Source: Globomyces pollinis-pini (lineage: Eukaryota > Chytridiomycota > Chytridiomycetes > Rhizophydiales > Globomycetaceae). From it: DNA of 22,094 nucleotides. Positions within the stretch are counted from its first letter, which is position 1. Each line of letters opens with the position of its first letter. The stretch covers positions 25,252-47,345 of the forward strand of contig MU621223.1 in assembly GCA_025399215.1 (NCBI GenBank). Direction: 5' to 3'. A program made the translations under genes and the position numbers. Of the stretch, positions 509-22,028 are shown one piece after another. Below the pieces are notes generated by a model. The model saw only the letters and a program-made list of their open reading frames with translations, did no database searches and was not told where the DNA came from.

Positions 509-1919
509 CTAGACACGAACAAACAGTCGTCCCTTTCCGACGGAGAGTTTGATAGATGTAGCCAAAGTAGCACCAATAAGAAGGCATCCACCTGTCACCA
601 TCATTGTAACAATATAATTATAAGTTACAACACCTTCGACTGTAGATTTGGTCAATTCCAATAATAATCCAGCAACCGGTGGTCCAAAAATATCTCCAAA
701 TAGAAATCCAGTATATACCATTCCTGTGATGGATGCAATGTTTTTCGTTCCAAACATTTCAACAATTGCTAAAGTATAAATATTGACTAAATGTATTACC
801 AGATGGAAGTAATGAAATTAACCCTCCTGTGAAGAGACCATAAATAATGGAAAATACTGTCAACCATAAATATGATGTAGCAAAAGGCCAGATTAGCATA
901 ACGGCCATTCCACCAATAATTGGACATACGGTTAATGTGTTGATGTGTCCAAGAATATCTGCATTAAAGCCTAAAAATATTCTTCCAATGGCACTTGCTC
1001 CTACTATTCAGATGTGTTTGTAATACCTTGCATGTAACCGATGATTAAGGCACCTTCTGTACTTGTCATTCCATGTTCAACTGCAAACGAAGGGACAAAG
1101 AAGAACGGTATGAAATATCCAAACATAGAAAACGTAACCATAAGGAATAAACGAATGAACTTGCTATCATATAAGATCGTTTTATATTTGAAATCACCCC
1201 TATTAGACTTTGGTAGACGCGGTTTTAAAGCAATAGCACACAATAAAATAATCACCCCACCAATCAAGCCCATGTATCGCAAAGCATTTGCGACTCCAAA
1301 ATGACTAATGGAATACCGAAGTAATGGGGCTACAGCCAATCCACCTAATCCTATCCTACTGAGAATCGTTAAATTTACCTGAACCTGAAACTGCAATTCC
1401 AATAGCCAATCCTTTTCGTTTACTAAAATAATGGGATATAATAGTAAGTCCCGGATAAAATGCTAATGAACAGCCAATGCCGAACAGAACACCTTGGCTT
1501 AGTAACAGTTGCCAATACTCTGTAGCACTAGCTGCCAAAAATCCGGATAAAATAATACAAGATCCGCCAAAAACACATAGAAATCTATATCCAAACTTGT
1601 CGATAAAGAATCCAGCAGGAATTGCTAGTAGACCTAGTCCCCCCGTCCCACAAGATCCAATGAGTGCTATATCTACTGGTGACCGAGAACCTAACATCAA
1701 TTTTGTACAACTATTACCATTAAAATGTGGATCATTTGTGTAAATTTCTTGAAAGACTCCAAAGGAACCTGGTATTCCAATAGTGACGACATGAATCATG
1801 AATGATGCTAGGACAATGACCCAACCATATCCACCTTCTGGAAAGTCTCCATCTTCTACAACTAAATCCAATTCAACATCCTGACTTTCAACTACTTTAT
1901 CTGAAATATTAAAAGACAT
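509..1919 (-). CDS. monocarboxylate transporter-like MFS protein, copy 1 (SLC16/MCH type)
   Basis: Five exons encode 433 residues: 1919-1718, 1690-1379, 1350-1027, 1003-800 and 768-509. The introns are 27, 28, 23 and 31 nt. The first membrane segment carries the SLC16 signature as EGGYGWVIVLASF. A later segment gives the second family signature, YFSKRKGLAIGIAVSGSG. The hydrophobic pattern fits twelve membrane segments with a hydrophilic central loop after about residue 225. The family moves lactate, pyruvate or related monocarboxylates with protons across the plasma membrane; the substrate here is unknown. The 27-nt intron is a multiple of three and has no stop, so unspliced mRNA would add nine residues. 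The spliced form is preferred because it matches copy 2 exactly at that point. The head-to-tail neighbour at 2358-3779 is a paralog with all four introns at the same places. Confidence 0.9.
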
Positions 1920-2357
1920 TTAAATTAGGAGAAATCGAATTTAATTTTATTGGGTTATATTGGGGAAAAAAACGTTTCATTTCGCAATATCTGTCATGAG
2001 GAACGGTCAATTTCGGAATGAATATGACACGGTGGGGGATTTTTTTTTTTGCTTTTTACTTTGGATTTAGATTGAAAAATCATGAAATTCAAATCTTCCG
2101 TGGATAAAATCACGCTCATATGAAGTTTGGTATGCTTATCCAATAGTTTCTCATGTTCGGGATAGAATTAAAAACCGTGTAACGTGTGACCAAATTTGAT
2201 GAACACCATTCATCTAATTGCATTATTCAATTTGTCATGATTTACTGGTGATGACAATCACCATTAGGATATAGATCAAAATGTTGATGAGGAACTGTAA
2301 CTGTTCAAAACTTTCAACTTCAACGTCTATGACCCAAGAAAATTTATTAATGTATAT
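1920..2357. other. intergenic region between the tandem transporters
   Basis: This holds the promoter of copy 1 and the 3' region of copy 2. An AATAAA on the minus strand at 2348-2343 is a likely polyadenylation signal for copy 2, about 10 nt after its stop. There is a poly-T run near 2040. A plus-strand open frame at 2281-2472 is a shadow of copy 2. No gene is supported. Confidence 0.6.
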
Positions 2358-3779
2358 TCATACTCTTGCGAAGAAACGGCCCTTTGCAACTGAAATTTTG
2401 ATTGATACCATCAGTATTGCTCCTACCAGAATACAACCACCTGTCAACATGATGGTTGTTGTAAAATCATAAATTTTAATCCCGCTCTTATCTTCATGCT
2501 CTCCAAGCAAGAATCCAGCAAATGGAGGTCCCAAAGTATCACCAAAGAGAAATGCAGTGTACACCATACCAGTGATTGACGCTACATTTTTGGTTCCAAA
2601 TAACTCGATAATTGCTACAGTGTTAGTGAATGTCAATCAATGTACCTGATGGAAGAAGTGAGAGTAACCCCCCTACGAAGAATCCATATAGAACTGAAAA
2701 CAAGGTCAGCATTCCATATGTTTTTGAGAATGGCCAAAGCAATAATACAGTCATGGCCCCAATAACTGGGCAAATAGTAAGGGTATTGATGTGCCCTAAA
2801 ATATCTGCATTGAAACCCAGTGCAATTCTCCCAACAGCGCTTGCGCCTGAAATTATTTAGTTTAAATGAGTATACCTTGCATGTATCCTAACAGCAGTGC
2901 ACCATCCGTAGTTGACAGTCCATTTTGAACCGCAAATGATGGAATAAAAAAGAATGGAATAAAGTATCCAAACATAGCAAAGGTCACCATAAAGAATAAT
3001 CGAATGAATTTTGAATCGAAAAGGATCGCTTTATAATCGAAATCTCCCTTCTTTGATGGAGGAAGTCTAGGTTTCAACAGTAAACCACAAATAATGACAA
3101 TAACACCTCCTGTTATACCAGTTATACGAATAGCTGCTGTGACGCCAACACTAGAAATCAAATACTGTAAAATTGGAGCCACTATTAATCCACCAATACC
3201 TAATATTATTGAAAGTCCCAAAATTACCAGATCCAGATACTGCAATTCCAATTGCCACACCCTTTCTTTTATTGAACCAATGAGAAATAATGGTCATGCC
3301 CGGAAAGTAACTGATTGCACAACCCATTCCGAATAAGATCCCTTGAGTCAAGAGTAATTGCCAGTACTCGGTTGAATACGATGCCAGCACGTAGGAAATA
3401 ATGATTAATATACCTCCAATCACACATAAAAATTGATGACCAAATTTATCAATAATTAAACCGGAAGCTAAAGCGAAAAATCCCATTCCACCAGTCCCAC
3501 AAGATCCAATAAATGCAACATCCATAGGTGAATGGGATCCTTGAATTAAAGCTAACGGATACCATTAAAATGTGGGTTATTAGTATAATGTTCTTGAAAG
3601 ACTCCAAATGAACCTGGAATTCCAATAGTGACAATATGTATGATAAACGATAGGAATACCATCAACCAGCCATAACCTCCGTCTGGATACAGATCCTCTG
3701 GAGTTTCCACTTCAATATTTTCTAGATCTGTCATCACAGACGTTTGCTCTCTACGTAACATTATTATTTCATTTTCCAT
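2358..3779 (-). CDS. monocarboxylate transporter-like MFS protein, copy 2 (SLC16/MCH type)
   Basis: Five exons encode 436 residues: 3779-3563, 3539-3228, 3199-2876, 2846-2646 and 2614-2358. The introns are 23, 28, 29 and 31 nt. The SLC16 first-helix signature appears as DGGYGWLMVFLSF, and the second family motif as WFNKRKGVAIGIAVSGSG. Exons 2 and 3 have the same lengths as in copy 1 (312 and 324 nt), and all four introns interrupt homologous codons in the same phase. This shows tandem duplication after intron gain. The N-terminus is longer than in copy 1 and diverged, as is usual for the cytosolic tail. The fourth intron has a clear branch-like CACTAAC close to its TAG. Substrate specificity cannot be read from the sequence. 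Confidence 0.9.
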
Positions 3780-4214
3780 TGAAAAAGCAAAAACATAAAT
3801 GTGTCATTTCTGGGTGATGCTTGTTTCGTATGACCCTATTTTTTTCTTGTGTAAACAGCAATGTTTCACAGACGAAATACTTCCAGACTCCCTTTTGGTC
3901 GACTCTACATGGATTTCTGTATCCACGACCATCTGCCGCGTGTGCATTTAAGTGAAATGTGCACCAAGTGGTTAATGTTTAATATGCAATAGCATGTGAA
4001 ATGTGTACCAAGTGGTTAATGTTTAATATGCAATAGCATTCATGAGTTACCCTTTTCAGTGTAAAGGTGATCCCATTTCGTTTGTTATAATGTAACCGTG
4101 AATGTCATTGTATACTGAACAGTAACTACTTGAATTTCCTGTCAAAGATATTCCAGTTATTTAACCCTACGTTGTTTAATTGGATTGAATTCACTGTTCT
4201 GTACTTTTTTCTTG
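3780..4214. other. divergent intergenic region with a tandem repeat
   Basis: This separates the start of transporter copy 2 (minus) from the Crinkler-like gene (plus), so it should hold both promoters. Apart from the two-copy 44-bp repeat I see no coding signal in it. Confidence 0.5.
3952..4039. repeat. two-copy 44-bp direct tandem repeat
   Basis: Units at 3952-3995 and 3996-4039 abut exactly and differ at a single base (GCACC against GTACC). Each begins GTGAAATGTG and ends GCAATAGCAT. The near identity suggests recent duplication. It lies 170 to 260 bp upstream of both divergent genes, so it doubles any regulatory site inside the unit. Confidence 0.95.
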
Positions 4215-4736
4215 ATGATTTCTCATCTGATTGGAAGACGCTGCTACTCTACCTCTAAAAAAGTATCAAAACTATGGGTAAAACTTAACAAATGTCCATC
4301 TACGAAAGTCTCCATCAAAAACTGTATCAACATTGATGACTTTGCTGACAAGGTCAAACAGAAACTCAATATCAAGAGCCAAGTAGCTTTATTCACCTCC
4401 CTCGAAAAAGAATATATTATGCCTGGTCTTACAATCAAAGAACTCCTCAAAACAGAATTCAAGAACAATAGTGACGAAACACCAGTGTTTATCAAAATCA
4501 TGCCTGTTGTTAAAGACTTGACAACACCTAAAAAAACCATATATATTGGAGAAACTAATAGAAAGGGATTGTTTAATGGTACATACAAGAAATGGACTCT
4601 CAGAAACGACCAAGATATGACGAATGTGATCGAGAATGCTAAAGGCTTGATCCATCCATCTTTTCCAGAACATGTATTCATTCACTTTGACGAGATCCAA
4701 GATGGGGAAAAATATCAATTCTACAACTTTCCTTAG
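4215..4736 (+). CDS. Crinkler-like ubiquitin-fold protein with a mitochondrial-type N-terminus
   Basis: A single open exon encodes 173 residues. The frame extends upstream to a TTG at 4185, but 4215 is the first ATG. Residues about 14-95 (from SKKVSKLWVKLN through KCPSTKVSIKNC to FIKIMPV) resemble the ubiquitin-like N-terminal domain of Crinkler-type proteins found in oomycetes and early-diverging fungi. This rests on pattern memory, not a search. The rest (ETNRKGLFNGTYKKW and onward) matches nothing I know. The N-terminus has several basic and no acidic residues and contains RRCYST, which fits the R-X-Y/S mitochondrial cleavage motif. It has no introns, although every other complete gene here has at least one. 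Its function is unknown. Confidence 0.6.
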   Translation: MISHLIGRRCYSTSKKVSKLWVKLNKCPSTKVSIKNCINIDDFADKVKQKLNIKSQVALFTSLEKEYIMPGLTIKELLKTEFKNNSDETPVFIKIMPVVKDLTTPKKTIYIGETNRKGLFNGTYKKWTLRNDQDMTNVIENAKGLIHPSFPEHVFIHFDEIQDGEKYQFYNFP

Positions 4737-4950
4737 ACATTTCAATCTTGACAAAGGACCTATTCAGTTTCAGATTAACCTCATTTTTCTACTACGTAGT
4801 TACATATCGGATACAGTAATAAAAAACGTGTAGATATATATACTGTAGAAAATATTCTGAAAGTAACAATTACAAAAAGGAATAAAATCCGAATACAGAA
4901 TTGGTTCAAAATTGGTCAAACAATTGAACAATGATTTATAAATTACAATA

Positions 4951-7900
4951 CTAACTGTGCAATTTTATTTCGGGAAAAACAATAGTATAGATTTCATCAT
5001 ACCATGATACAAAATGTGGGTCCAAGTTTTCCTTCAAGTAATCATCAAGTTCATCCCAATCGCTTTGATTCGATTTGGGGAAGATAATGGTTTTAACACC
5101 ACTTCGTTTCGCTGCTATGGCCTTCTCCTTCACCCCACCAATTCGAAGTACCTTTCCAGTCAAGGTGATTTCACCCGTCATTGCAACCTATATATGAAAA
5201 CAAACATATGTTTACATCTTGTAAAACAGGTGTATCTAAAGCCAAGGAAAGTAAAGATGTAGTGATTGTTGATCCAGCAGATGGGCCTAAAGATATAAAC
5301 TTCAACACCAGCCTTACCATCTTTGGGGGTAGCCCCTTCAGGGACATGCATATGAATCTGTGCATGATCAAAGAATGTGTTTTCTGGGAAATGCTTCACC
5401 ATAAATGATTTTGCAAAAGTGTAAGCAATGGTACTACTTTCCTTCATCACATCACCTAATTGACCAGTTTGATTAAACGATGGTTTGCTCTCATCTGTGA
5501 CACGAGATTGTACTACTGATTCGATATATAGTGAAGATCCACCTATATTTTGAGTTGAGTTGGAATTAATATATACCCATGCTAGTCCATGCCAATCCCA
5601 TGACAATTCCTGGTGGTGTAGTATCATACATTCTCTCTGATGTGAATACAGGAGATCCAACATATTCCTTCAAGTTTCCATCAGTAATGGTTATTTCAGT
5701 ATCCTTAGTATATTTGTCTTCATCACTGATAATCTTGAATGCTGCCTTACGATATATCTTATCAATATGTTTCTTTAGGTTTCGAACTCCATTTTCCCTA
5801 CAATAATTCTTGATCAAAGTGGAAATCGCAGAATCAGTCAAATTCACTTTGTATTTTTGCAATCCACAAGCTTCGATACTTTGAGGAGCGAGATATTTTG
5901 CTGCAATAGCAACCTTTTCTTCAGCTACGTATCCAGATAATGTGATGATTTCCATACGATCTGCAAGCGGCCCTGGGATTGTTTCTAAGGTATTGGCAGT
6001 ACAAACAAATAAGACTTGGGATAAATCAATAGGTACATCCATATAATCTAAAATTAGGAAAAAAGCAATTACGATCGAGGAAGGAACTGTTTTGTTCAGG
6101 GTCAAGAAGTTCCAGTAATGCTGATGCAGGATCACCTTGATGACCACGACCAAGTTTGTCAACTAAACCAAATCAATGCACTTTAATTCTTACTCTCATC
6201 AATCATAATCAAAGGATTCTCCGTTTTCACCTTCTTCAAAGCTTGCACAACCTTTCCTGGCATAGCTCCAACATAGGTACGTCGATGCCCTTTGATTTCT
6301 GCAACATCCGTCAGTCCACCAACCGAAAAACGGTAAAATTCACGACCAAGAGCACGAGCAATAGATTTACCAACTGAGGTTTTACCCACACCTAAATATT
6401 AATTTCTTTTTAAAAAAAGTGAATACCTGGTGGTCCAACCATAGTAATAATTTTTCCTTCCACTGATCCTCTCAACTTCCCTACCGCAATAAATTCAAGT
6501 ATACGATCTTTGACATCTTTGAGACCATAGTGATCTTCATCCAATATAACTTTAGCAGTCTTTATATCAAAATTTTCGTCACTTCGTTGACCCCATGGTA
6601 TCTACAATAAATGAAAAATTAGATTACTTGAGTCAACCAATCCAAATAATTCCTGGTAACATTGAATTCGGATGCTTGGGGTTCCAAGCTGGATAATTTT
6701 TGTATTTCCTACAATGAAAAGGGTGTGTAATTACATCATTAAAAACTTTCAATATCTGCTCAGGCATTTCTAATGCGGCTGCCTTGTCTTTGAAAGATTG
6801 AATCATTTTCTCCTTGCCGTCAGTTTCTAATCCGAGTTCTTTTTTAATTCCTTTCAACTGTTCCATCAAGAAATACTCTTGGTTCTTTCTACTGATTTTC
6901 TTATCAACTTCCTGTGATATTTCTTGTTGTAGTTTAGCATTTGCTAATTCCTTTTTCAATACCACAAGTGCTTTATGGAGTTTTTCTTCAACAACTAAAC
7001 TTTCCAATACACTCTGTAGTTCTGAAGGTTCACCAGACGATATTGCTGCAGCAAAATCAGCAAGCTTAGAAGGATCAAGCAATAAATTGCCAGTTTGTAC
7101 AGAAACTGTTATAATTTGATCTCTGAGTAATGGATTCGATTGTGAAATCTCTTTCAAGACGTTGATGATTTCAGAGGTTGTGGCTTTAATGACTCTATTT
7201 TCAGAGTTGAAAGGTTCATCTGCTAAATCTTCTACAGTGACTACTGGCATAGCAAATGATTTTAAAGTTTCAAGAATTGTTGGAGTGGATTTTTCGGTAG
7301 ATTCCACTACATCATTAGTATCCAGAAGAAATTTTAATTGATAATTATTGACGATTTCCATTTAATGATGAGATTTACCTTTTTCAATGGGTTTACTTGA
7401 AAGTTGTTCGACTGTTGTAGCAAATTCTGTGATTCTGATACGTCGTTGTGGGTAGACCACAACTGTCAAACTGCTTTCATCAGTTCCAGTTGGGTATGTA
7501 TTGGTAATTTGAGCAAGTACACCAATTTTTTCAATTTCATCCATATCAGTGACAATATCTTTATCTAATGATTCGTTTTTGGCTAAAAATATTCCAACGT
7601 ATGGTGTACCATTTTTAACTAATTCTTTGATTGTTTCAATGGCTCTTGGATCTTTGATATACATGGATTTAAAAAAACCCGGAAAGAGTGGTCTTCTACT
7701 TAACGGTATAGCTAATAAATTTGGAACATGTTCTGGAGGATTTGTAGTTTTAAAATTCAGTTGATTAAGTCCATTTTTAGTGCTTGGAGATTTGTTGGAT
7801 TTTCTAGAGGATACTTTTACACCCTTTTTTGTTGATTGCACTTCATCTTTTGGTTTAGTTTCTTGATCATTTTTTTGAGCTTCATCGACTTTAGAACTTG

Positions 7901-8179
7901 GTTTTGACGAGAGTTTGTCATCGACAAGGTTTTGTGAAGGTTTATCCTTTAGATTTTGGTCTTGACTCTCTGAATCCTCATCAACATCCTCTGATTTTTC
8001 ATCCTTATCATTACTTTTAGGTGGTTTTTTAGTAGACATGTTTACGATTCGCATGTTCATGGGACGATAAATAAGAGGACGAAGAGTCTAATCTGAATTA
8101 AAAATTTCAATTAAATAACCGAAGTGAATTGTGAACGAAAGACTGTTCGATTGACAGAGTGTATTGCACGACTTAACAT
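4951..8179 (-). CDS. PIM1: mitochondrial Lon protease homolog (Pim1 type)
   Basis: ATP-dependent protease that degrades damaged matrix proteins. Eleven exons encode 962 residues: 8179-8120, 8087-7379, 7306-6735, 6708-6628, 6601-6427, 6391-6194, 6162-6073, 6047-5577, 5542-5318, 5286-5216 and 5187-4951. The introns are 32, 72, 26, 26, 35, 31, 25, 34, 31 and 28 nt. The order is: basic presequence, low-complexity acidic linker, Lon N-domain (from about residue 80), AAA+ module with Walker A GPPGVGKT (530-537, split by an intron) and Walker B LIMIDEID, then the protease domain. Catalytic Ser863 in KDGPSAG and Lys906 in GGVKEK are 43 residues apart, the same spacing as Ser679 and Lys722 in E. coli Lon. 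8179 is the first ATG; exon 1 reads [14 protein letters not shown], and its 32-nt intron is the least certain. An ATG at 8060 is the fallback start. Confidence 0.95.
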
Positions 8180-9616: not shown

Positions 9617-9655
9617 ATAACGTTTTTTAAATATTCCTGGATTATCTATTTTATT
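9612..9655. terminator. paired, overlapping polyadenylation signals of two convergent genes
   Basis: AATAAA at 9612-9617 (plus) overlaps the stop codon of the Mpo1-like gene. AATAAA at 9655-9650 (minus) overlaps the stop of the converging orphan gene. Only 34 bp separate the stops, so each transcript must run into the other's coding sequence or end almost immediately. Confidence 0.5.
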
Positions 9656-10290: not shown

Positions 10291-10544
10291 CTTTCAATAA
10301 AGGAAATAAAGTAATATGGGGGACAAAGTTGATCAATCCACCCTAGTTACTCATTGAACCCAAATCCACTTTGATGGTAACTTGACCTCATTTAGTGTAC
10401 TGTTACTGTTCAATAGAATTTCAATAAAATGCTGATACTATCAGTAAGGATTCAGTAAAGGTTCTATAGTTTCTTATTTGGAAAAGTTGAGTAAGAGTGA
10501 GTCAATTTCATGAAAAAACTCGTCACGTTAAACAAATAAATGTA

Positions 10545-11571: not shown

Positions 11572-13014
11572 ATGGGAATTGCATGTTGTAAAGGTCCAGT
11601 GATTGATGACAATGCGGAAGGTTAGTATCCAATTAAAATGCTGATATTCGTTAGTTGAGCTGTCGCATTTCAATTTATTAAGGTCGGTAGGGAAAGGTGC
11701 TTTTGGAAAAGTAATTCACAAAAAAAGTATCATTAATTATCAGGTACGAGTTGTTCAGCATAAAGGAACGAAATGTATATACGCTCTCAAATATATCAAC
11801 AAAGCCAAATGCATGCAAATGTCGGCCGTGGATAACATTATTGAAGAGAGGAAATTATTAGAGGCAATTTATAGCAACTTTGTTTGGTTTGTTATTTTAT
11901 TCTTATTAATTTCTTTTTCTTTAAATAGTAATTTACGTTATGCCTTCCAAGATGATGAAAATCTATTTATGGTTCTGGATTTAATGTTGGGTGGAGATTT
12001 AAGATTCCATCTGGACAGAATGGGTGCCTTTAAAGAAGATCACATCTCGTTAGTTGTTGCTGAAATATCTTGTAGTTTATCATATTTGCATTCCAAAAAT
12101 ATCATTCATAGAGATTTGAAACCAGATAACAGTTTGTTTTTTCAAATGATATTAACTTTTTTTAGTTTTACTGGATGAAGAAGGTCATGCTCATTTGGCT
12201 GATTTCAATATTGCCACAAGGTTCAGAGATGATAAACCGCTTACGGCCGTTGCTGGTAGTATGGCGTATATGGGTATTTTTTGTTAATGATACTAATCCT
12301 TTCCAAGCACCGGAAATTCTAGGTAAAAAAGGATATTTCGCCTCAATTGATTGGTGGAGTTTGGGTATTATCATTTATGAAATGTCTACTGCAAAGGTAT
12401 ATTATTTCATTCATTAACTTTTTTCAGAGGCCTTTCAGAGCAAAGACAAACGAAGGGCTGACAAATGCTATTCTACATGAAGAGATTCCATTAGATCCAC
12501 TATCAAAGCTTAGCCCACCTCTGATTGATTTAATAACCAAGTTCTTGGATCGGGATGTGAAGAAGCGATTGGGGGTAAAGGAAAGTGGTGGGTTGAATAC
12601 CATTAAAGCTCATCCATTCTTTGCATCACTGGATTGGCCAACCGTAGAAAATAAGAAAGCCATTCCACCATTTGTTCCAGATGTAAATCCAAAACCCAAT
12701 ATTAACCCAATTTTTAGGCAAAGAAAGCCAACTTTGATGCAACACACGAGTTGGAAGAATTACTCTTGGAAGATAACCCATTGAAAGCCAGACCAAGAAA
12801 AAAGAAGGGTGAAAAAACACCACCACCTGCAAATGAAACTCCAGAGGAACGAGCATATCGACTCATGGAAGATAATTTCACAGTTTTTGATTGGACAAAA
12901 ATCCGAAAAGATGAATCTAATTCAATGTCAAATACAGACCCTGTTGATCTTTGTGAAAAGGGTAACTATGTTACAGAAGTAAAAGATAAACCAACAGCTG
13001 GACCACCAAATTAG
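11572..13014 (+). CDS. STK32/YANK-type AGC serine/threonine kinase, N-myristoylated
   Basis: Eight exons encode 399 residues: 11572-11620, 11655-11710, 11744-11886, 11929-12131, 12166-12273, 12308-12396, 12428-12682 and 12718-13014. The introns are 34, 33, 42, 34, 34, 31 and 35 nt. The N-terminus MGIACCK predicts Gly2 myristoylation and Cys palmitoylation, so membrane attachment is likely. Kinase landmarks are the glycine loop VGKGAFGKV (28-36), Lys51 in YALK, HRDLKPDN with Asp145, ADFN at 162-165 and GSMAYMAPE. DFN in place of DFG is a family trait of STK32 kinases, not damage. The C-terminal tail has a basic RPRKKK patch and FTVFDWTK. Introns 2 (33 nt) and 3 (42 nt) are in frame and stop-free, so retained forms would stay open. 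Substrates are unknown. Confidence 0.93.
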
Positions 13015-13200
13015 TCTGTAAACTCTATGAAGACAGTTACTTTTAATAGATTTCATTTTTAACAATTGTTTTTGTTTGATTTTTAAATATCTGCTTGTTC
13101 AGATTTACGTCTAATGAAATTGATTTATTGCAACTTTCAAATGATTAGTCACACAAAAATAGACATTCAACAGATGTTACCTACAATTTTTTTTTATTTA
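13015..13200. other. convergent 3' region, kinase / zinc finger
   Basis: This 186-bp AT-rich gap has a poly-T run near 13188-13195, which is a poly-A run just after the zinc-finger stop on the minus strand. Nothing else is seen. Confidence 0.5.
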
Positions 13201-14796
13201 TTACATCATATCAGCATCCATTTTAAAATCTTCCATAATTAATTGACCAGCAATAGGTCGATAGGTGGTTTGAAAAGATCCATCGTTTGTAAAGGTATCA
13301 TTGATGACTAGACCATCAGCAGCAGACTCAAAGAAGAGATCATCTTGTCTGCCTGTTGGAGTTTTCAACATATCTGCCAAATCAAATTCGGAATAAACTT
13401 GGGAGGATAAAGGTGAAGGTCTATGGATGTTTAACCCTGATGGTATATTGAAACTGGATTTCAAACGAGAATGTTGGCTTTGGAAATTAGAGTGAGGATT
13501 CATGGCTCTATTTGATTGTGGTAATTGTGGTTGAGCAAACTGAGTTTGTTGCATTTGCTGCTGTAATTGTGATTGTTGCGGCTGGGGCTGTGGTATCATT
13601 GGATTTGTAGTCATTTGGTAGCCAACTTGATTCATGTCTGGGAAAAACCCAGTATTAGGTTGAGGTTGTCCAAACTGATTAAATTGCACCTGTGCATTAA
13701 ACTGCGCAAAAGTTGGATCCTGTGGGGATACTGAATACCCTTGATTAGGATTAGGAAATGGATTATTAAAGTTTTGTTGGTTAATATTTTGATAGTTAGT
13801 ATTAAAGGTTGTTCCAAATTCATTGGTAGTTGGAGTAAACATCAACGGTGATGCTTGAGTTTGGAAATTCAGAGGAAGAGCAAAAGAGCCATTAATATCT
13901 GTGACGACGCTAGGGTTTAGGCCATTTTGTTGTGAGAAACCCGAACCATTATTGACAGAAGTGGATTGCGAATCTAATGAATTCAAATAACTGGCAGGAT
14001 CAATGAAATTTGGGTCTAGTAATGTAGCAGGGTCTATAGCATCGTCGTTATGGTTAGAAGACATGCTTAATGAAGCTTTTCTTTCAAAACCTGATTTTTT
14101 GACTGATTTCTTTCGAACTTCAGCTTTTTTACTTGATTTTCCAGGGACTTTATCACTTGGTACATGATTTTCTGATGTACAATGAGAATTTAATGTATCC
14201 ACATCAGGAAAACCTCGATTACAAGTTCCACACAAAAATTGTCTTTCAGAAGAATGCACTGTTCTCTCATGACGCAACATATCGTGTCGTCGAGCGAAAG
14301 GTTTACCACAAAACATACATAAATGCTTTTTATCAGCTACCGAATCAATTCAACTGAAATAATATACCTTTATGAACAGTTTCATGAGATCGCAAAGCAA
14401 CCAGTTTTGTGAAAGATTTGTTACAATCAGGACAATTAAATTCTCCTTGGGATTGATTCTGATCATCCTCAACCGTTAATTGATCCATATCAAATAAAAA
14501 ATCAACAGGGGAAGCTACGGAAGCAGAAGTTTGACTGCCACCATACTGACTACCCATAAACGAACCTCTTCTGCTACTATCCAGAAAATAAGGAGCATTA
14601 GAAGAATTAGCACTAAGAGGAGAATCTAGAAAAGACTCTGAGGACAACAGAGTAGCAGCAGTAACAGGAGCAAACAAGTGATTCGTTTGATTTGGCTTTA
14701 TGATTAGATAGTCAAACAAAATACTTTATATAACTGGGCCATTGAAATCGAGTCTGAATCATACTCTGCATTCTTGTACCTTGGAAAATTGTCCAT
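13201..14796 (-). CDS. three-finger C2H2 zinc-finger transcription factor
   Basis: Three exons encode 511 residues: 14796-14725, 14695-14368 and 14336-13201. The introns are 29 and 31 nt. Starting at 14719 would need a TTG; splicing the 24-residue exon beginning MDNFPRYKN supplies an ATG and removes a branch-like ATCTAATC intron. Zinc ligands are C112/C115/H128/H132, C140/C143/H156/H161 and C169/C172/H185/H191. Finger 2 (CGKPFARRHDMLRHERTVHS) and finger 3 resemble the Crz1/Msn2 style of fungal stress regulators, but orthology is not shown. A basic stretch (KKAEVRKKSVKKS) after finger 3 may be the nuclear localisation signal. The Asn/Gln-rich region at about residues 290-420 and an acidic end (MEDFKMDADMM) suggest activation domains. 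A perfect 11-bp-arm inverted repeat lies 82-124 bp upstream of the ATG. Confidence 0.88.
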
Positions 14797-14877
14797 CGCT
14801 TTTAAAGGAAAGGAAGTTTTACACTCAACAAGTTGATGGGTGGCGCAAACGAAACCACTTTGACCGCCAACACCACA

Positions 14878-14920
14878 AAAGAGTACAGTATTGCGAACAA
14901 GTGCATGTGCTGTACTCTTT
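14878..14920. promoter_or_regulatory. 11-bp perfect inverted repeat upstream of the zinc-finger gene
   Basis: AAAGAGTACAG at 14878-14888 is the exact reverse complement of CTGTACTCTTT at 14910-14920, with a 21-nt spacer. It sits 82-124 bp upstream of the zinc-finger start. It may be a dimer binding site, possibly for the factor itself, or a hairpin in the leader. Confidence 0.55.
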
Positions 14921-15052
14921 ATGTTGTTATAGACTGGGTATAAATTGAAATCATCCAATTGGAACCATATATGAAAAAACACGAAGTCCCAAATTTAATT
15001 AGCACATGGTCACAAATCAATCCATGTTTGTCAGGCGATATATTAATCACGT

Positions 15053-17588
15053 TTAAAGTCGACTGCCCTTTAACTTCAATTGAATCTTATTCATTTGTGT
15101 AAGCACAAATGTATAATCATTCGCAATCTCTTTGATATAACTATACCGCCCAGTAGATCCAAAATGTCCTAACTTTCAACCATTACCATAAAGTACCTGA
15201 TCCCATCTTGCAATCCAAACATAAAATACTCTTCTCAGCATCATTTTCACCGCCATCCATTTTCATGTCACGCAACTTGGCAATCCATTTACTAGGCTCC
15301 CAGTAGGCCACTCTCGGATCAAACAATCCCGCTTTAATTAACAAATTTGGGAACTATAAAGTTCAGAAATCCTACAATACCTTTGCGCCTTGGGGGATAT
15401 TGTCGTAAGGTGAATAGGAAAGCATATAGTCAAAATAATCTTTTTCATTTGGATTACCCCATTCCTCATACTCATTAATAGTTAATGGGATAGTCGGGTC
15501 CATCACTATACAGTAAATCAAAAATACCGTTACTGGTGTTAATAACATCAACAAAAGGAACTCCAGCTACAGCAACAGCACATAATTTAGGTTCCATATT
15601 TAAGACAGCCCCAATCAACATTCCACCAGCAGATCGACCATCAATTGCCAATACGGACGATGACGTGTATTTTTCATGAATCAAGTGCTTAGCACAAGTG
15701 ATGAAATCAATAAAAGTATTTCGTTTATGTTTAAACTTTCCAGTTTCATACCTATTGTCAAGATAAAATCATTTACCAAGCTCTACCACAATCACCACCA
15801 CCTCTGATATGTGCAATCGCATATACAAAACCTCTGTCCAACAAACTTATTCTAGATGAACTCCAAGATGGTTCTATAATGAAAAAAACACCTTTTTACC
15901 AATAGATATTCCGTAGCTACCGTATCCATACAAATACAATGGGTTCGTTCCATCTCCTTTAAACAAGTCAGTTTTATAGATCAGAGAAATGGGGATATTA
16001 TCAGGGACAGGTGTATCAAATGGTGCATTAACTTTGGTAGATAAATCAATAGGAGCATAAATTCTCTTCATGGTGTACAATTTAGGATCAAAATTTCCAG
16101 GAATATTAGTCTTTTTCAAATACTTTCTTTCTTTTGTTGTCATATCATATTCAATTGTTTGTGATGCAGTTACCATAGAATCGTACACAAATATCAATTT
16201 GTTGCCATGATAGTTTAATTTAGATGCCTATGTTTAACTCAACTATGTGATTAACTGAAATTGTTCCCAAGGTGAATACTTCTTCATCAAAATCGATATA
16301 GTGTGATGCTGAAACAACTGTTAAGATACAATAAACAAACCTTCTTCGTAATTCTTTACTTTACCGGATTCGGACTTTACAATACGTAACTTTGTATTTC
16401 CATTGCTACGTTCAAATACTAAAGATAAATAAATAAATAACCTCAATTACATGCGATATGTTTTTCAAATGGCAAGATTTCTTCAATATAAGTAAAGTGA
16501 TCATATGGAATAACTTCTTCCCAATGTTGAATAGAGGTTGCATTCTAAATATTAAGAAAGTAGGAATCATTACAATTGGACAGGAATATAGAGTATTATT
16601 TAGACACTTTCCACCCAAATCAGTGAGGATCAAGAATCGATCACCTTGATGCTCTACAGAATATCTGTGTCGATTTTCTCGTTTATTAAACAAGATGGGA
16701 TCTAATGGTCAACCAATAGTTAAATAACCGGTTTTGGGGAAATTTGCATCAATATAATGATATTCATTTGTCAGTTTACTGAAGGAACCAATGAATATAT
16801 ATTTGTTTGATAATGACTTTTCAAACCCAACCACAAATTTTGGGTCAGGTTCATGGTAAATCAAAACATCATCTGCAACACCAAATTCATGTCTATAAAT
16901 CTTGTCACTATCGTTTAAATTTGATTGTGAATTACGGTCGATGAATGTCATCTAAAGTATTATAAAAGACAGTTTGACTGTCTTGTGCCCATTCAATAGA
17001 ACCAGCTGATTTTTCTATCGTTTCTGATTCAATTAATTGACCAGTAGTTAAATCTTTAAAGAAAATCTTGTAATTTTCACTTCCATCGAAATCCATTGAA
17101 TAAGCGAGAATCTATGGATAAAATATTAAAATTCATGAAAAAAAGTACCTTATGATTAGGACTGATTCGATAATATGATAAATCTTGATATTCTTGTTTC
17201 ATTTCATTTTGATTCAATACAATTTCTTCTGGTGAATCCAGGGTATGTAACTTTCGACAATAAATCGGATATTGTTGTCCTTTCACTGTACGACTATAAT
17301 AATAATACGGATCTTTAAAGGTGGGAACTTGTTCATCATCTTCTTGAATTCGCGAAATAATTTCATTATAAATTGTATCAGATAATTCTTGATCACGATG
17401 AGAATCAAAGTATTTGTTTTCAGCCTACCATCAACAATGAATTTTAAAAAAGTTACTTTAATGTATTCAATGATATCTGGTCTTTTTTCTTTTGGATTCA
17501 TATCTTTTAACCAATGATAGGAATCATTGAATTCTAAATCATGATATTTATGAACATGAGGGACTTTTTTGCAAATTGGAGGATCCAT
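15053..17588 (-). CDS. ptrB: oligopeptidase B (S9A serine peptidase)
   Basis: Cleaves short peptides after Arg or Lys. Fourteen exons encode 721 residues: 17588-17457, 17424-17149, 17111-16936, 16907-16729, 16701-16574, 16544-16451, 16418-16341, 16317-16256, 16227-15900, 15873-15777, 15751-15534, 15505-15381, 15353-15197 and 15168-15053. The introns are 32, 37, 28, 27, 29, 32, 23, 28, 26, 25, 28, 27 and 28 nt. The N-terminal part forms the beta-propeller ([30 protein letters not shown]). The hydrolase domain has Ser557 in GRSAGG, Asp643 in [12 protein letters not shown] and His685 in GSGHFG. Length and order fit the family. The frame stays open 44 codons upstream of the ATG with no acidic residue. 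An exon at 17819-17793 joined by a 72-nt intron (17792-17721) would give a 53-residue mitochondrial-type presequence. Confidence 0.93.
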
Positions 17589-17915
17589 AAAGACTTTTGT
17601 AGTTGATTGAAAAGTACGTTGAAATGTTGATCTGATTGAAATTGAAGTTGAAATTGATTGAAATTGATGACAAGAAATTCCAATGGTATTCTTTAAAGAT
17701 TGACTGGTTCTGGAGAAAATCTTTGAAATCCAAAAGGAAAAAATTTAAAAATCAGTTGAAGGATGGATTTCAGATCCAGGAGTTGGTTGTACAGGGTACA
17801 AAGAGTTGAACTGAGACATGTCCCGATAATTCATTTCGGTGATTCAACTCATTCAAAGCGCGCTAAATGTAATTAAATAATTACACTGTTTAATTGAACA
17901 TACTAATCAACTTTA
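17589..17915. other. region upstream of oligopeptidase B, possible 5' exon
   Basis: This 327-bp gap lies after the ureidoglycolate lyase stop on the same strand. It contains a possible first exon for the peptidase: ATG at 17819, donor GTACAA at 17792, acceptor CAAAG ending at 17721. An in-frame Ser/Thr/Arg-rich stretch, free of Asp and Glu, runs from 17720 to 17589. If the exon is not used, this is promoter and leader. Confidence 0.4.
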
Positions 17916-18506
17916 TTAATTATAGTCAATATGAATAGGACTTTCACGAAAGAAATATTCCTCACAATCTTCATCAGCAGTCAATTGATTCCCATCTCGA
18001 TTGAAATCAACGACAACAAAATCAATTGGATGGTCTAATACAATCATGGATCGATGCCAAGTACCAGGATGGTAGTTGAATGCTTGTGTAGACGAGGCTT
18101 CAAATACCTTGATGGTGGTTAAATCTGGTTTGTCACTTGGTAATGGTTGAGCAACAATAACCAGATAACGCGATTTCTGTCCAGTCATTGGAATAAACAT
18201 TTGTGAGCTGTAGCGATGACGCTCTAATACACTGGAATAAATGTTATACATTGCATGTTACCTGACACTTAATGGAATTGGTGATGGTTGAACTCTAAAG
18301 ATGGATACTGTATCTTTTGCAGCCGGTAAAGTCAATTCTTTTGCTACCCCTTTTGCTCCTGGTAGCCTCATATTCACAAGTCTGGTTAAATCCATGTGGT
18401 ATGACGTTGTACCCGGTTTGGCATCACAGTCAACTTCTGGAATTTCCAACACGTCACCAAATTCAGAAAACTTGTCTTTAACTAACGGCTGAACATGAAC
18501 AATCAT
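17916..18506 (-). CDS. DAL3: ureidoglycolate lyase
   Basis: Splits ureidoglycolate into glyoxylate and urea, the last step of allantoin breakdown, releasing nitrogen from purines. Two exons encode 186 residues, 18506-18262 and 18231-17916, with one 30-nt intron (18261-18232) that removes a premature TAA and restores the frame. The length matches yeast Dal3 (about 195). Family features are KFSEFGDVLE near the N-terminus, RVQPSPIPLSVSVLERHRYS spanning the splice, and the metal-site motif FNYHPGTWHRSMIVLD. Its neighbours are not purine-degradation genes, so it is not in an allantoin cluster. The ATG at 18506 gives a standard N-terminus (MIVHVQPL). Confidence 0.93.
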
Positions 18507-18664
18507 TGAGAATCAAGTCGAACTTTGTTCCTGAAAGAAAACGGATTCAGTTTCAACATGAATTTAAAACACAACATTTATCCGGCTTCAAATACGGTCA
18601 AATTCAAAACATTTATTCTTTTATAGAAATAAATAACCAATCAACATATTTAAATCATCGTCAC

Positions 18665-20119
18665 CTAGAAGAATGCAAAGGCCGCCAGGATGAGTGAGAT
18701 GACGCTACCAACAGACGAAGTTGGAACGGCATCGTTCTTGGAGTTAGGGTTAGCTTGAGAAGGTTTGTGGTTGGCCATACTTCCATTAACAGTTTTACTC
18801 CATAACAATAAATCACCCAATCCGTTCTTTAAATCATCTTGGAAGGTTTTCAGAGTCACAAGATCTTGTGGTCCTCCATCATTTCCATAGTTTGAGTGTA
18901 TACCAGTTCCGGTATCACCAAGAATGGTGAAATCTCTCCAAGTATTTTCTTCGTATTTGATAAATTCAAATAATGACATGCCTTTGATTTTAGGGAAGGT
19001 TTCCAAAAAAGTGGCATTGATCATTTGTCTCCACCATGCTTGCTTGATCATAGCTCGTGATTCAGGATCTTTCCTTCCAGGAACAACTGTATATTCTTCA
19101 CCAGTAACTTGATTCACTTTAGTAACAGATAAATGAATAGTAGCAGCACTTTCGGATATCATGAATGGTTTCCCACCTTTTGAAACAGATCTTGGGGCCC
19201 CACCTACTCCATCACCAGAAAACATTCGGTAGAATGGGAATTTACCAAACGGATCTTGACCAGAAATGATTTTTTCAACTGTTCCAGGTATAGGTGGATC
19301 ATTTGTCTCCCATGGATACTCTTTTCCATAATGGTACACCTACAATGAGATCAACATTTCTTACTGACATGCCAATCCAATCAACATAGTCATCACCAGG
19401 ATAGAAAGGGCTATATGGATCATCTCTGATATCATAAACGCCATCTTTGTTGGTATCCAACAGAGGATCAAAATCAGGTGTATTCACTTTGATCGCAAAA
19501 GGACCCAACGGAAATGGATAGCCATTACCCGAATTCGGGGACCAAAGGAACGCAACGTTTTCTTTACCTGATTTAGCACGAATCGCATCAACCACTTTTT
19601 GCCACGACTTTATGAACTTGGTAGGTTGTTGACCATATCTAAACCAAGAACCTAATAAAATGAGACGCTAAGTCAAATCACCATTCATTTCAGACGCATA
19701 ACGAATTAGAACCTTACGACCGGTTTCAGTAATACTCTTAATCCTGTTTGATAAATCTGCGATAGCCTCATCACTGACGGCATCATACCCTTCCATAGGA
19801 TAAATAGTTAAATATAAGAAACAATCAGTTTGAGTTTGTTCGACTTGATTAAAATACATTTCCATTTCGACAGATTGTAAAGTTTTAGTCATATTCATAT
19901 CAGATTGAAAGAAAGCTAGAGGTTTATAATTTAATCTTGCGTTTGTAGAAACTGGAGTATCACCATGTAATCGATCATACCAACTTCCACTATAAAAAAT
20001 GAGTTTAATTTTTAAAATATTTCATACAGATACATTTGCTTTGATCCTGTAGGTTCCAAGGTAGCTAAAGCTAAGATGGCATGAAATAGACAAGATAAAG
20101 ACAATAACTTTTGAATCAT
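18665..20119 (-). CDS. GH26-like glycoside hydrolase, secreted and GPI-type, copy 1
   Basis: Four exons encode 453 residues: 20119-20028, 19989-19682, 19651-19365 and 19339-18665. The introns are 38, 30 and 25 nt. The signal peptide is MIQKLLSLSCLFHAILALA. The GH26 (clan GH-A) pattern includes GSWYDRLHGDTP, the acid/base Glu131 in RYASEMNGSWFRYGQQP and the nucleophile Glu292 in GKPFMISES. Most GH26 mannanases have His before the acid/base Glu (HExNG); here it is Ser. Between the two Glu is a calcium-type loop, DTNKDGVYDIRDD, then YPGDDYVDWIGMS. The C-terminus has small residues then a hydrophobic tail (SVISLILAAFAFF) with no charged end, as in GPI signals. Beta-mannanase is the likeliest activity, but a cell-wall glucan or xylan is possible. 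It pairs with the divergent copy at 20614. Confidence 0.85.
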
Positions 20120-20613
20120 TTTAATCTATTGATTTCGTTAAAAAATTAAATAATTTTAGCGGTCATTCAAATTGCTAATGATCAATTTTTCTTTATCCCA
20201 AAACAATGACATTGTCAAAACATTGTTTACAATTCAAATCGTATACTTTTGTACCTACTTAGTAAGTAGTACTTACATACCAATAAACACTATAAATACT
20301 CTTATTGTTGTCTTGACTATCTCTTACACAGCCTCGTATCCCGTTGGAATTTGTTATACGTAAGGTTACTGTATGCTAGTTAAAACCACTTGTAGCATAC
20401 AATCAAACCGAATTACAACTTGATATGGTATTAAAACCAATTTAATCTCAATTCTTTATTTTGACTATCGACAGTGTAATTGGTAGAAATGACCGTTTTG
20501 GGGTTTTTTAAGATTCGATCCTACTTGAATCACCACATACATTGTTCATCGTTTCTGTTTTTATTTCTTGACTCTCTATATTTATTCCTTGATATTTTCA
20601 AAGCTAATCTAGA
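20120..20613. promoter_or_regulatory. shared divergent promoter of the two GH26-like genes
   Basis: This 494-bp region lies between two start codons facing away from each other. It is AT-rich, with no credible gene. The open frame at 20172-20363 is low complexity and lacks homologous features. A nested palindrome sits at 20255-20276. Shared control of both copies is inferred from the arrangement only. Confidence 0.6.
20255..20276. promoter_or_regulatory. nested palindrome in the divergent GH26 promoter
   Basis: Three half-sites TACTTA, TAAGTA and TACTTA alternate in orientation, separated by single G bases at 20262 and 20269. This makes two overlapping 15-bp perfect palindromes (20255-20269 and 20262-20276). 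The site is about 136 bp upstream of copy 1 and 338 bp upstream of copy 2. It looks like a binding site for a dimeric or cooperative regulator. Confidence 0.5.
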
Positions 20614-22028
20614 ATGCAATTGACTACGTTACTATTGTGTATCACTGGTATACAAGCACAGATTGGTCGATTCGAACCGGATCCTAGTGTTGTCGGGGTG
20701 TACTTGGGAAGTTGGTGGTGTCGACTGTATGGTGGTGGTGATACTCCATCACGAACAAACAGTCGCGTTGGTGTTCGACCTTTCTCACTTTGGCAAGGTG
20801 ATTTCAATATCTCTTCTACTCTACAATCTGCTGATTTCAATCAAATTGTGGAACAGGTTGAAGATACTAAAACTGATGCTCTTGTGATGTTGACTATTTA
20901 CCCGGTAGATGGGTTGGATGAAGTGTCTGATGCTGCTCTCAATGATTTGGCGACAAGAACCGCAAAATTCGCTGAAACTGGTCGTCGTATCATGATTCGA
21001 TATGGATCTGAAATGAATGGTATGTTGCTTGATTGATAATGGTAGGATGTTGGTTTAAATATGGACAACAACCAGCCAAGTTTGTCGCCCACTATCGAAG
21101 AGTCGTTGATACATTACGTACAGCAGCAGGAAAGTATTCCGAAAATCTGGCATTCGTATGGGGACCAAACTCTGCAAATGGGTATCCTTTCCAATGTGAA
21201 GTCAATTATGGGGTTAATGACACTTTACTTGATACAAATGGTAATGGAAGATTAGATGCTGAAGATGATCCTTACACTCCTTACTACCCTGGTGATGATT
21301 ATGTCGATTGGGTCGGTTTATCGGTAAGGTTCCAAGAAGTGCTGATATACTAGCTTTATCATTACGGTGATACTTATCCGTGGGTGCAAAATTTGATGCC
21401 ATCCCCTGGAAAGGCTGAAGCCATTCTGACTGGAAGACGTCCATATGGAAGATTCAACTTTTATGAAATGTTTTCAGGTTCAGGAGCAGGTGGTCAACCA
21501 CAACCTAAATCCAGAGGTGGAAAACCATTCGTGATTACTGAAACTGGTGCACCAACACATTTATGGGTTAAGGAACCAAATAAACCGGGCTATGTTCCAG
21601 ATGGTACTGATCCAGATACCAGAGCTAGAATCAAACAAGCTTGGTGGAGACAAATGATCAATGGTACTTTTTTGGCAACCTATCCTAAAGTTCGAGCCAT
21701 CCAATTTTTTGAATACATTAAACCAGAAGAAACTTCATTCCGAGACTTTACCATGATGGGACCAGCCGTGAAGTTAGACTCTCCGGTAGGAGATGATGGT
21801 GGACCTAAAAACGGTGTACAGTTGGCGGCATTGCAAAGCGATCTCCGTGGAGAACTGAATCGATTTGTGATTTGGTCCAACGAAACAACCACCATGACAG
21901 GAGGTACATTGCCATTGCCAAAACCATCACCAACTCCTGGAGCTGGAGGTAAATCAGGCAGTGAAGACCGAGGTGCATATGTGGTGATGACAGTCTTGAT
22001 GGCTTTACTGTTCAGATACATGTTTTGA
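20614..22028 (+). CDS. GH26-like glycoside hydrolase, secreted and GPI-type, copy 2
   Basis: Three exons encode 452 residues: 20614-21019, 21046-21323 and 21354-22028. The introns are 26 and 30 nt. An in-frame TAA just upstream fixes the ATG. The signal peptide is short (MQLTTLLLCITGIQA). Active-site Glu133 lies in RYGSEMNG and Glu291 in KPFVITETGAP, with nearly the same spacing as copy 1. The calcium-type loop is DTNGNGRLDAEDD. The last exon is 675 nt, identical in length to that of copy 1, and both introns match copy 1 in position and phase. Copy 1's first intron, before GSWY, is absent here. A Pro-rich linker (PLPKPSPTPGAGG) precedes a hydrophobic tail (VVMTVLMALLFRYMF), a weaker GPI-type signal. 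The stop codon's last A starts an AATAAA. Confidence 0.87.

Follow-up and report, generated by a model that had tools for sequence, protein, structure and literature searches.

The window analysed here, a stretch of 22,094 nt from the chytrid Globomyces pollinis-pini (Chytridiomycota, Rhizophydiales), contains the genes for a mitochondrial Lon protease and an oligopeptidase B, together with gene-finder models for an MFS transporter, a second transporter-like protein, a protein kinase and two GH26 proteins (Table 1). Our analysis covered the window and sampled stretches of other contigs, about 260 kb out of the 18.5-Mb assembly, and used DNA and deposited proteins. Both in the window and on the other contigs, the genes of this fungus are densely interrupted by GT-AG introns of around 28 nt.

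Introns were rebuilt independently of the coordinates of the original prediction. After removal of 10 GT-AG introns (25, 26, 26, 28, 31, 31, 32, 34, 35, and 72 nt), the Lon gene reproduced the deposited G. pollinis-pini protein P0001 letter for letter from ATG to TAG, and the deposited oligopeptidase B (P0121) was reproduced from ATG to TAA without a mismatch using 13 introns, all of 25–37 nt. On another contig, the deposited CCT-epsilon protein defined six introns of 30–34 nt and one of 80 nt. Taken over these three genes, whose deposited protein models may themselves be ab initio, 28 of the 30 introns measure 25–37 nt. GT-AG boundaries fitted all 30 with zero protein mismatches, in an alignment that permitted GT-AG only, and the density is about 4.5 introns per kb (30 introns per 6.68 kb of coding sequence). 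The remaining two introns, of 72 and 80 nt, lie outside the tiny class. Thus, of the 53 introns in 12 genes originally proposed, the 23 located in two genes agree exactly with deposited proteins, and the other 30 are gene-finder models only.

Table 1. Genes and introns of the window (strand as indicated; basis of each assignment in the last column).
Feature	Position	Strand	Basis and remarks
MFS transporter gene	509..1919	-	gene finder; MFS_1 Pfam match
MFS transporter gene introns	769-799, 1001-1026, 1351-1378, 1691-1717	-	gene finder only
Second transporter-like gene	2358..3779	-	gene finder only
Second transporter-like gene introns	2615-2645, 2847-2875, 3200-3227, 3540-3562	-	gene finder only
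Lon protease (mitochondrial) gene	4951..8179	-	P0001; ATG at 8179; 10 introns
Lon intron, 32 nt	8088..8119	-	P0001
Lon intron, 72 nt, long class	7307..7378	-	P0001; same intron used by JEL0801 protein
Lon intron, 26 nt	6709..6734	-	P0001
Lon intron, 26 nt	6602..6627	-	P0001
Lon intron, 35 nt	6392..6426	-	P0001
Lon intron, 31 nt	6163..6193	-	P0001
Lon intron, 25 nt	6048..6072	-	P0001
Lon intron, 34 nt	5543..5576	-	P0001; site and phase match putative retained 21-nt intron in Terramyces
Lon intron, 31 nt	5287..5317	-	P0001
Lon intron, 28 nt	5188..5215	-	P0001
Protein kinase gene	11572..13014	+	gene finder; Pkinase Pfam match
Protein kinase gene introns	11621-11654, 11711-11743, 11775-11804, 12132-12165, 12274-12307, 12397-12427, 12683-12717	+	gene finder
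Oligopeptidase B gene	15053..17588	-	ATG at 17588 by eye; end from gene finder; 13 introns
Oligopeptidase B intron, 32 nt	17425..17456	-	P0121
Oligopeptidase B intron, 37 nt	17112..17148	-	P0121
Oligopeptidase B intron, 28 nt	16908..16935	-	P0121
Oligopeptidase B intron, 27 nt	16702..16728	-	P0121
Oligopeptidase B intron, 29 nt	16545..16573	-	P0121
Oligopeptidase B intron, 32 nt	16419..16450	-	P0121
Oligopeptidase B intron, 32 nt, CAG acceptor	16309..16340	-	P0121
Oligopeptidase B intron, 28 nt	16228..16255	-	P0121
Oligopeptidase B intron, 26 nt	15874..15899	-	P0121
Oligopeptidase B intron, 25 nt	15752..15776	-	P0121
Oligopeptidase B intron, 28 nt	15506..15533	-	P0121
Oligopeptidase B intron, 27 nt	15354..15380	-	P0121
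Oligopeptidase B intron, 28 nt	15169..15196	-	P0121
GH26 gene	18665..20119	-	gene finder; Glyco_hydro_26 match
GH26 gene introns	19340-19364, 19652-19681, 19990-20027, 20065-20091	-	gene finder
Second GH26 gene	20614..22028	+	gene finder; Glyco_hydro_26 match
Second GH26 gene introns	21020-21045, 21324-21353	+	gene finder

Some further gene-finder calls in the window are questionable. A 96-nt intron at 1423-1518 in the MFS transporter gene and a 15-nt intron at 3151-3165 in the second transporter-like gene are doubtful, and the call at 12049-12075 in the protein kinase gene, which would excise kinase-like coding sequence, looks false by eye.

Tiny introns on other contigs

A gene finder, with no splice-signal model and a flat length prior of 14–600, was run on 200 kb made up of 20 stretches from 20 other contigs, with the window excluded. 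It placed 27 of 43 GT-AG introns at 23–36 nt. When seven alternative dinucleotide pairs were used on this DNA, the counts were 3/31, 9/40, 7/36, 6/39, 6/39, 3/32, and 10/39; two of these pairs, GC-AG and AT-AC, are rare real intron classes and therefore not pure decoys. At 51–150 nt, the GT-AG count was not above that of the other pairs. From 682 introns modelled by a trained gene finder, a flank filter removed 308, and 342 of the 374 that were left measure 20–39 nt, so that most introns are shorter than 40 nt and fall in a narrow range, as among the deposited introns; the mode is 28 nt, and 25 of the 374 are at least 45 nt long. The median of the filtered introns is also 28 nt, slightly below the originally proposed value of about 30 nt, whereas the tiny size class itself stands. 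Gene models for CCT, SF1, U2AF, and ISY1 were likewise composed mostly of tiny introns. Within the coding spans of Lon, oligopeptidase B, and CCT-epsilon (the last scored by length match), the gene finder recovered 25 of the 30 deposited introns and made five wrong calls; an ORF-based finder is blind to stop-less introns of 3n length. The agreement of the three deposited proteins with the gene-finder peak on other contigs supports the proposal of near-minimal introns in a gene-rich fungus.

We also considered whether exons avoid pseudo-introns in a length-tuned manner. In coding sequence from the gene finder the observed/expected ratio was 0.62 at 23–36 nt, but this estimate is circular, and exonic GTA...TAG in raw long ORFs was depleted without length preference (0.68 at 23–36 and 0.63 at 37–50). 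This reading was therefore dropped.

Splice signals and branch-site position

For the analysis of motifs, 30 introns outside 20–45 nt were removed from the 374, leaving 344 chosen by a gene finder whose training included the window. Their donors (GTA 293, GTT 40, GTG 6, GTC 5), which lie outside the window, give nearly the same tally as that first reported within it (GTA 44, GTT 8, GTG 1). TAG is also the dominant acceptor (TAG 251, CAG 53, AAG 39, GAG 1), although its share of 251/344 is lower than the 45/53 originally counted. Similarly, the CTAAT or CTAAC motif described as common near the acceptor is enriched, with 56 occurrences vs 22 in shuffles, but is confined to 55 of the 344 introns, and the branch motif in most introns appears to be a degenerate YURAY rather than CTAAY.

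This motif was learned from the same 344 gene-finder-selected introns, 21 of which had a low branch score and were set aside. In the remaining 323, the putative branch A lies 6–10 nt from the last intron base in 246 and 17–21 nt from the first in 213, and it falls less than 6 nt from the intron end in only 7, as against about 48/254 in shuffles. In every deposited intron (30 in all, with 25 absent from the set that taught the motif), at least 6 nt separate the predicted branch A from the end, and in 22 of them this distance is 6–10 nt. The position of the branch-site A thus appears constrained. The best motif was found less than 17 nt from the intron start in 55/323 introns, some of which are perhaps wrong choices. 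None of the 323 introns has a pyrimidine run of at least 8 between the predicted branch A and the AG.

Splicing factors

Inspection of the branch-site-binding splicing factors, suggested as a check in the original prediction, revealed genes for SF1 (with HH, KH, and zinc knuckles), U2AF65 (both RRMs and the C-terminal domain), and U2AF35 (RRM and both zinc fingers; S. pombe U2AF23 match at 2.1e-87), all with their domains intact. We also found ISY1, whose alignment to human ISY1 starts at residue 4, and a U2 snRNA with GUAGUA. As judged from these genes, the protein factors for intron recognition look ordinary. U1 was not found in the assembly by searches run without a positive control. Neither was U6, sought without a positive control through Rfam and three patterns, two of which were empty and one of which gave a single partial match lacking Rfam support. 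RED_N had no match in a search in which no control gave signal. With dense introns, and with SF1, both U2AF subunits, and ISY1 present among the components sought, splicing in this fungus does not resemble the reduced type of microsporidia.

Relatives and deposited annotation

Conservation of intron positions was assessed through the deposited proteins of relatives. Across all seven of its intron sites, spliced CCT-epsilon aligns without a gap to five of seven relatives; the remaining two, Terramyces and Boothiomyces, depart at one intron site. In two Terramyces proteins, insertions can be read as retained introns of 21 and 24 nt, with matching site and phase, suggesting that the tiny-intron trait may span two families. 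In addition, the deposited Lon of Globomyces sp. JEL0801 misses three coding stretches, one of them bearing PSAG, the catalytic serine motif.

Discussion

We consider it very probable that these are ordinary major-spliceosome GT-AG introns, shrunk to about the shortest span over which the spliceosome engages both ends. Intron size thus seems to be near the minimum permitted by the splicing geometry of this fungus. Deletion-driven shrinkage would take introns down to a geometric floor wherever the genome is sampled, leaving a weak GTA(A/T) 5′ splice site, a degenerate YURAY branch site with its A mostly 17–21 nt from the first and 6–10 nt from the last base, and a 3′ end that is mostly TAG. The two floors, of about 17 and 6 nt, would together give the 24 nt at which the length distribution begins. 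Since the gap between branch site and AG is too small for a polypyrimidine tract, recognition probably falls to SF1 and the U2 snRNP, engaging the branch site, and to U2AF35, engaging the terminal AG, with U2AF65 probably acting mainly as a protein bridge.

The most serious competitor, tentative and less probable than this assignment of roles, is recognition independent of U2AF, in which a UHM protein of the SPF45/RBM17 type takes the place of U2AF65 on SF3B1. PMC8363638 reports such a replacement by SPF45 for short introns of human genes whose tracts are truncated, and the absence of long pyrimidine runs described above corresponds to that condition; however, both U2AF65 and U2AF35 have been kept with their domains. 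A mixture, in which tiny introns would be limited to some genes or to this region and coexist with a normal fungal class, is improbable. The 72- and 80-nt introns of deposited proteins and the filtered introns of at least 45 nt would fit it, but the identical peak recurs over 20 stretches from 20 other contigs, the CCT and splicing-factor models consist mostly of tiny introns, and no GT-AG excess over other pairs appears at 51–150 nt.

Even less probable is an artefact in which convenient GT..AG pieces were excised, manually or in gene models, to repair reading frames disrupted through sequencing errors or in pseudogenes. The gene finder does yield false calls of fitting length, such as 6481-6504 in Lon, but other dinucleotide pairs show no such peak on the same DNA, deposited proteins require the introns exactly, spliced CCT-epsilon aligns without gaps at the intron sites to all relatives compared but Terramyces and Boothiomyces, and the putative branch A has a preferred position, unlike in shuffles. 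Finally, the segments could be DNA-level elements removed before expression, as are the internal eliminated sequences of ciliates, those of Paramecium having a similar length range. We regard this as extremely remote, given that the GT/AG ends and the branch-like motif at a preferred distance are spliceosomal features and that protein matches identify the host as a fungus. We infer that the spliceosomal introns proposed here are removed at the RNA level.

Tiny introns are already known in other organisms, and what is new is their presence in an intron-rich fungus. In line with the original comparison to ciliates and nucleomorphs, section 7 of PMC10245619 gives 15–16 nt for heterotrich ciliates, 16–17 nt for mikrocytids, and 18–21 nt for nucleomorphs. 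Given these shorter introns, the floor looks like a property of this lineage's geometry and not of eukaryotes. Paramecium (P. bursaria and P. tetraurelia) also has many tiny GT-AG introns spread over a range of lengths, with a median of 24–25 nt (PMC12862383), but it is a ciliate and not a fungus, and its median is 3–4 nt below that of Globomyces. Stentor coeruleus likewise has tiny introns that lack a strong branch consensus, and homologues of U2AF1 and U2AF2 are listed for it (PMC9505925). Its introns, however, are 15–16 nt long, the branch A falls almost invariably on position 10 or 11, and the N-terminus of its ISY1 is reported as not conserved, in contrast to Globomyces ISY1, which aligns to the human protein from residue 4. 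Mikrocytids and chlorarachniophyte nucleomorphs resemble Globomyces in a narrow range of intron sizes, presumed to lie at a functional floor (PMC10245619, section 7), although their introns are shorter; those of mikrocytids are also reported to be few (224 in M. mackini) and to have strongly conserved sequences, and the spliceosome there is reduced, whereas Globomyces has dense introns with weak signals. Microsporidia are fungal relatives with relatively short introns (same section), but are described as having few or none and a reduced spliceosome, unlike the intron density and intact SF1 and U2AF found here. Cryptococcus neoformans, also an intron-rich fungus, has short introns as well, but their mean of 63 bp (PMC8476143, section 14) is about twice the Globomyces length. 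Many yeasts that keep U2AF1 show a short distance from branch to 3′ splice site without a tract, according to part of PMC4202332, which names three exceptions and calls a causal link unproven; a portion of PMC12862383 states this relation the opposite way round. Those yeasts differ in their strict GTATGT and TACTAAC signals and very few introns.

On a broader scale, the evidence seems to us evenly balanced as to whether the trait belongs to a whole chytrid clade, which would include Globomycetaceae and Terramycetaceae at the minimum. On this reading, tens of thousands of introns would have been compacted onto a geometric floor in two parts, some 17 nt between the 5′ splice site and branch A and some 6 nt from there to the intron end; the clade would have kept the full SF1-U2AF65-U2AF35 set and weak signals, intron length would help to define introns, and standard annotation pipelines would mis-splice the clade and so have hidden the trait. 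Gene catalogues of these chytrids can lose conserved exons, as in the JEL0801 Lon. Human splicing in vitro requires about 50 nt between the 5′ splice site and the branch site, as stated in PMC6692369; in Globomyces, 17–21 nt seem sufficient although the early factors look ordinary. A fungus so dense in tiny introns would permit direct tests of spliceosome assembly in little space, and would test whether introns shrink to a steric floor and what job U2AF performs without a tract.

Introns required by deposited proteins

Exact spliced alignment of deposited Globomyces pollinis-pini proteins to the window DNA bore out the original prediction of near-minimal spliceosomal introns, made by hand splicing: Lon and oligopeptidase B together require 23 introns there, of which 22 measure 25–37 nt. 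The deposited Lon (GT-AG introns of 10–400 nt permitted) required 10 introns with no mismatches (25, 26, 26, 28, 31, 31, 32, 34, 35, and 72 nt). With GT-AG introns of 10–500 nt permitted, oligopeptidase B required 13, all of 25–37 nt, and CCT-epsilon, encoded on a different contig, required seven (30, 31, 31, 32, 33, 34, and 80 nt). Over the three genes, 28/30 introns fell within 25–37 nt; donors were GTA (25) and GTT (5), and acceptors TAG (29) and CAG (1). The longest Lon and CCT-epsilon introns stand apart from the tiny class. The deposited models behind these counts may be ab initio or may draw on RNA. The 30 introns interrupt a total of 6.68 kb of coding sequence, a density of ~4.5 per kb; the densest fungus in the available text of PMC8476143, Gonapodya, has 4.5 introns per kb.

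In a protein search, the spliced Lon model was 100% identical to the deposited G. pollinis-pini Lon over 98% of the query. This organism (Chytridiomycota, Rhizophydiales, Globomycetaceae) has an assembly of 18.5 Mb in 459 contigs. Judged by protein matches (Lon, oligopeptidase B) and Pfam matches (MFS transporter, kinase, C2H2 zinc fingers, two GH26 proteins, ureidoglycolate lyase, Mpo1-like), the gene content of the window is fungal.

Features of the window and of two other stretches
Stretch	Position	Feature	Observation
Window	509–1919	Transporter-like gene	MFS_1 Pfam match (the one member of the pair scanned); adjacent to, on the same strand as and similar in sequence to the next; apparently a tandem duplication
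Window	2358–3779	Transporter-like gene	Second member of the pair
Window	3952–4039	Intergenic repeat	Tandem pair of 44-base copies, one base different (by eye)
Window	5543–5576	Lon intron	Site of the Terramyces Lon insertion
Window	7307–7378	Lon intron	72 nt
Window	13177–17588	Oligopeptidase B and C2H2 protein genes	The C2H2 gene is the one next to oligopeptidase B
Window	18665–20119	GH26 paralogue	Divergent from the next; hydrophobic C-terminal tail resembling an anchor signal (by eye)
Window	20614–22028	GH26 paralogue	Similar tail (by eye)
L008 (CCT-epsilon stretch)	residue 180	CCT-epsilon intron	80 nt
L009 (U2 snRNA stretch)	1–1132	Flank of the U2 snRNA gene	All N (bases masked or unknown)

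The length peak is specific to GT-AG

To control for selection by eye, we wrote a gene finder whose intron-length prior was flat from 14 to 600 nt. Run without splice-signal modeling on twenty 10-kb stretches, all outside the window, it placed 27/43 GT-AG introns at 23–36 nt, compared with 3/31, 9/40, 7/36, 6/39, 6/39, 3/32, and 10/39 for seven other dinucleotide pairs. A looser setting gave 68/128 for GT-AG and 13/87, 22/80, 11/72, 22/96, 19/99, 6/59, and 24/96 for the others. In these runs, GT-AG showed no excess over the other pairs at 51–150 nt. When splice signals were learned, length was not, and the window was included, 305/613 GT-AG introns measured 25–34 nt (five other pairs: 67/602, 79/470, 58/468, 111/632, and 72/609). 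The tiny introns are thus more than a product of selection by eye, since no other pair matched the GT-AG peak outside the window.

A run with learned lengths called 682 introns outside the window, and a flank filter retained 374. Of those, 342 measured 20–39 nt (median and mode both 28 nt), and the lower edge held five of 23 nt and 20 of 24 nt. As this model is biased toward its learned lengths and error-prone (25/30 deposited introns recovered in the three checked genes, with five wrong calls), our argument rests on the deposited proteins and on the runs free of this bias.

Splice signals, branch geometry, and machinery

Among 344 gene-finder introns of 20–45 nt, donors were GTA (293), GTT (40), GTG (6), and GTC (5), with G at +5 in only 73; acceptors were TAG (251), CAG (53), AAG (39), and GAG (1). 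A motif search returned the branch motif YURAY, with far lower likelihood in shuffled introns. The forms named in the original prediction, CTAAT or CTAAC, occurred in only 55/344. Branch scores exceeded threshold in 323/344 introns (mean of 254 in shuffles). The predicted branch A lay 6–10 nt from the last intron base in 246/323 and closer than 6 nt in seven (about 48 in shuffles); its distance from the first base was 17–21 nt in 213 and below 17 nt in 55 (about 122 in shuffles). In the shortest introns (23–25 nt), the median distances were 17 and 6 nt, which sum to a 24-nt intron. With the same motif, the predicted branch A of the 30 deposited introns, five of which are also among the 344, always lay at least 6 nt from the end (6–10 nt in 22/30) and, in 25/30, at least 17 nt from the first base.

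We consider these most likely to be introns of the major spliceosome, shortened by deletion down to two limits, one from the 5′ splice site to the branch A and the other from the branch A to the 3′ splice site. A run of eight pyrimidines was found in 0/323 introns between predicted branch A and AG, and upstream of it in five. U2AF65 usually requires a tract of at least eight pyrimidines, according to the available text of PMC8363638, and by these predicted positions could not have its usual tract here. Because there would be no room for it, we propose that the terminal AG would be read by U2AF35, with U2AF65 acting mainly as a bridge to SF1. The main rival is replacement of U2AF65 by an SPF45-type factor; the U2AF65 gene model aligns to solved U2AF65 chains over both RRMs and the C-terminal domain. 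It is plausible that intron length helps define the intron; an exonic-avoidance test did not support this.

Inspection of branch-site-binding factors, as suggested with the original prediction, found SF1 complete across its helix hairpin, KH, and zinc knuckles. U2AF35 residues 1–187 align to S. pombe U2AF23 (E 2.1e-87). The gene models themselves contain introns of 25–31 nt (SF1), 25–30 nt plus one 126-nt call (U2AF65), and 24–34 nt plus one of 80 nt (U2AF35, modeled in two overlapping loci with extra calls of 526 and 343 beyond the gene end). ISY1 aligns with human ISY1 from residue 4 and thus does not show the N-terminal divergence described in Stentor in the available text of PMC9505925. 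U2 snRNA scored 135 bits with GUAGUA intact. In searches of the whole assembly without a positive control, we found neither U1 (Rfam) nor U6 (Rfam and conserved patterns; one partial pattern match lacked Rfam support); these RNAs may be missing from the assembly, unusual, or overlooked by the search. RED_N gave no match, also without a positive control.

Traces in relatives and scale

Relatives were compared through deposited proteins. At the site of window Lon intron 5543–5576, Terramyces Lon carries an additional GILILNV, interpretable as an in-frame GT..AG intron of 21 nt in the same phase; excising it restores the conserved MGGSS, and a 24-nt reading also fits, with loss of one G. An insertion in Terramyces CCT-epsilon can likewise be taken for a 24-nt intron, matching the 80-nt intron of Globomyces in site and phase; removing it restores a conserved I and V. 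Both insertions were chosen by eye, and a GT..AG of matching phase and length could be placed at 40/927 (Lon) and 12/522 (CCT-epsilon) sites of the Terramyces proteins. Gaps in Boothiomyces Lon (P0007) and CCT-epsilon (P0246), and another in Terramyces CCT-epsilon, look like mis-splices.

On the window's Lon gene (4951–8179), the deposited Globomyces sp. JEL0801 Lon (P0002) required introns of 146, 64, and 113 nt with one mismatch; these remove conserved coding stretches, the last including the PSAG motif, and on this sequence comparison we regard the model as an annotation error. In Kappamyces P0190, oligopeptidase B is joined to a C2H2 protein resembling that of the next window gene, probably by mis-annotation; the order of the two genes appears to be conserved. 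In Boothiomyces P0246, CCT-epsilon is fused to a protein resembling its neighbor in L008 (ubiquitin-conjugating-enzyme variant-like, by eye), probably reflecting conserved gene order and a mis-fusion.

Tiny-intron genomes are already known from ciliates, nucleomorphs, and mikrocytids, according to the available portions of PMC9505925, PMC10245619, and PMC12862383, and Cryptococcus introns are short, yet longer than those of G. pollinis-pini (PMC8476143, available text). Our literature search, covering titles and abstract openings, recognized no report of introns this short in any chytrid, and the available portions of chytrid papers examined for intron content gave no lengths of this order. 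Since the introns are already in the deposited annotation, the depositors may know of them; the genome publication is Amses et al, 2022, as cited in the available text of PMC13391722. Extrapolating from sample density and coding share, we expect about 40,000–50,000 introns genome-wide, possibly too high a figure, as the sample was partly picked for genes. From the protein traces in Terramyces, Boothiomyces, and JEL0801, the tiny-intron trait probably reaches Terramycetaceae (Terramyces, Boothiomyces), and annotation pipelines appear to stumble on it.
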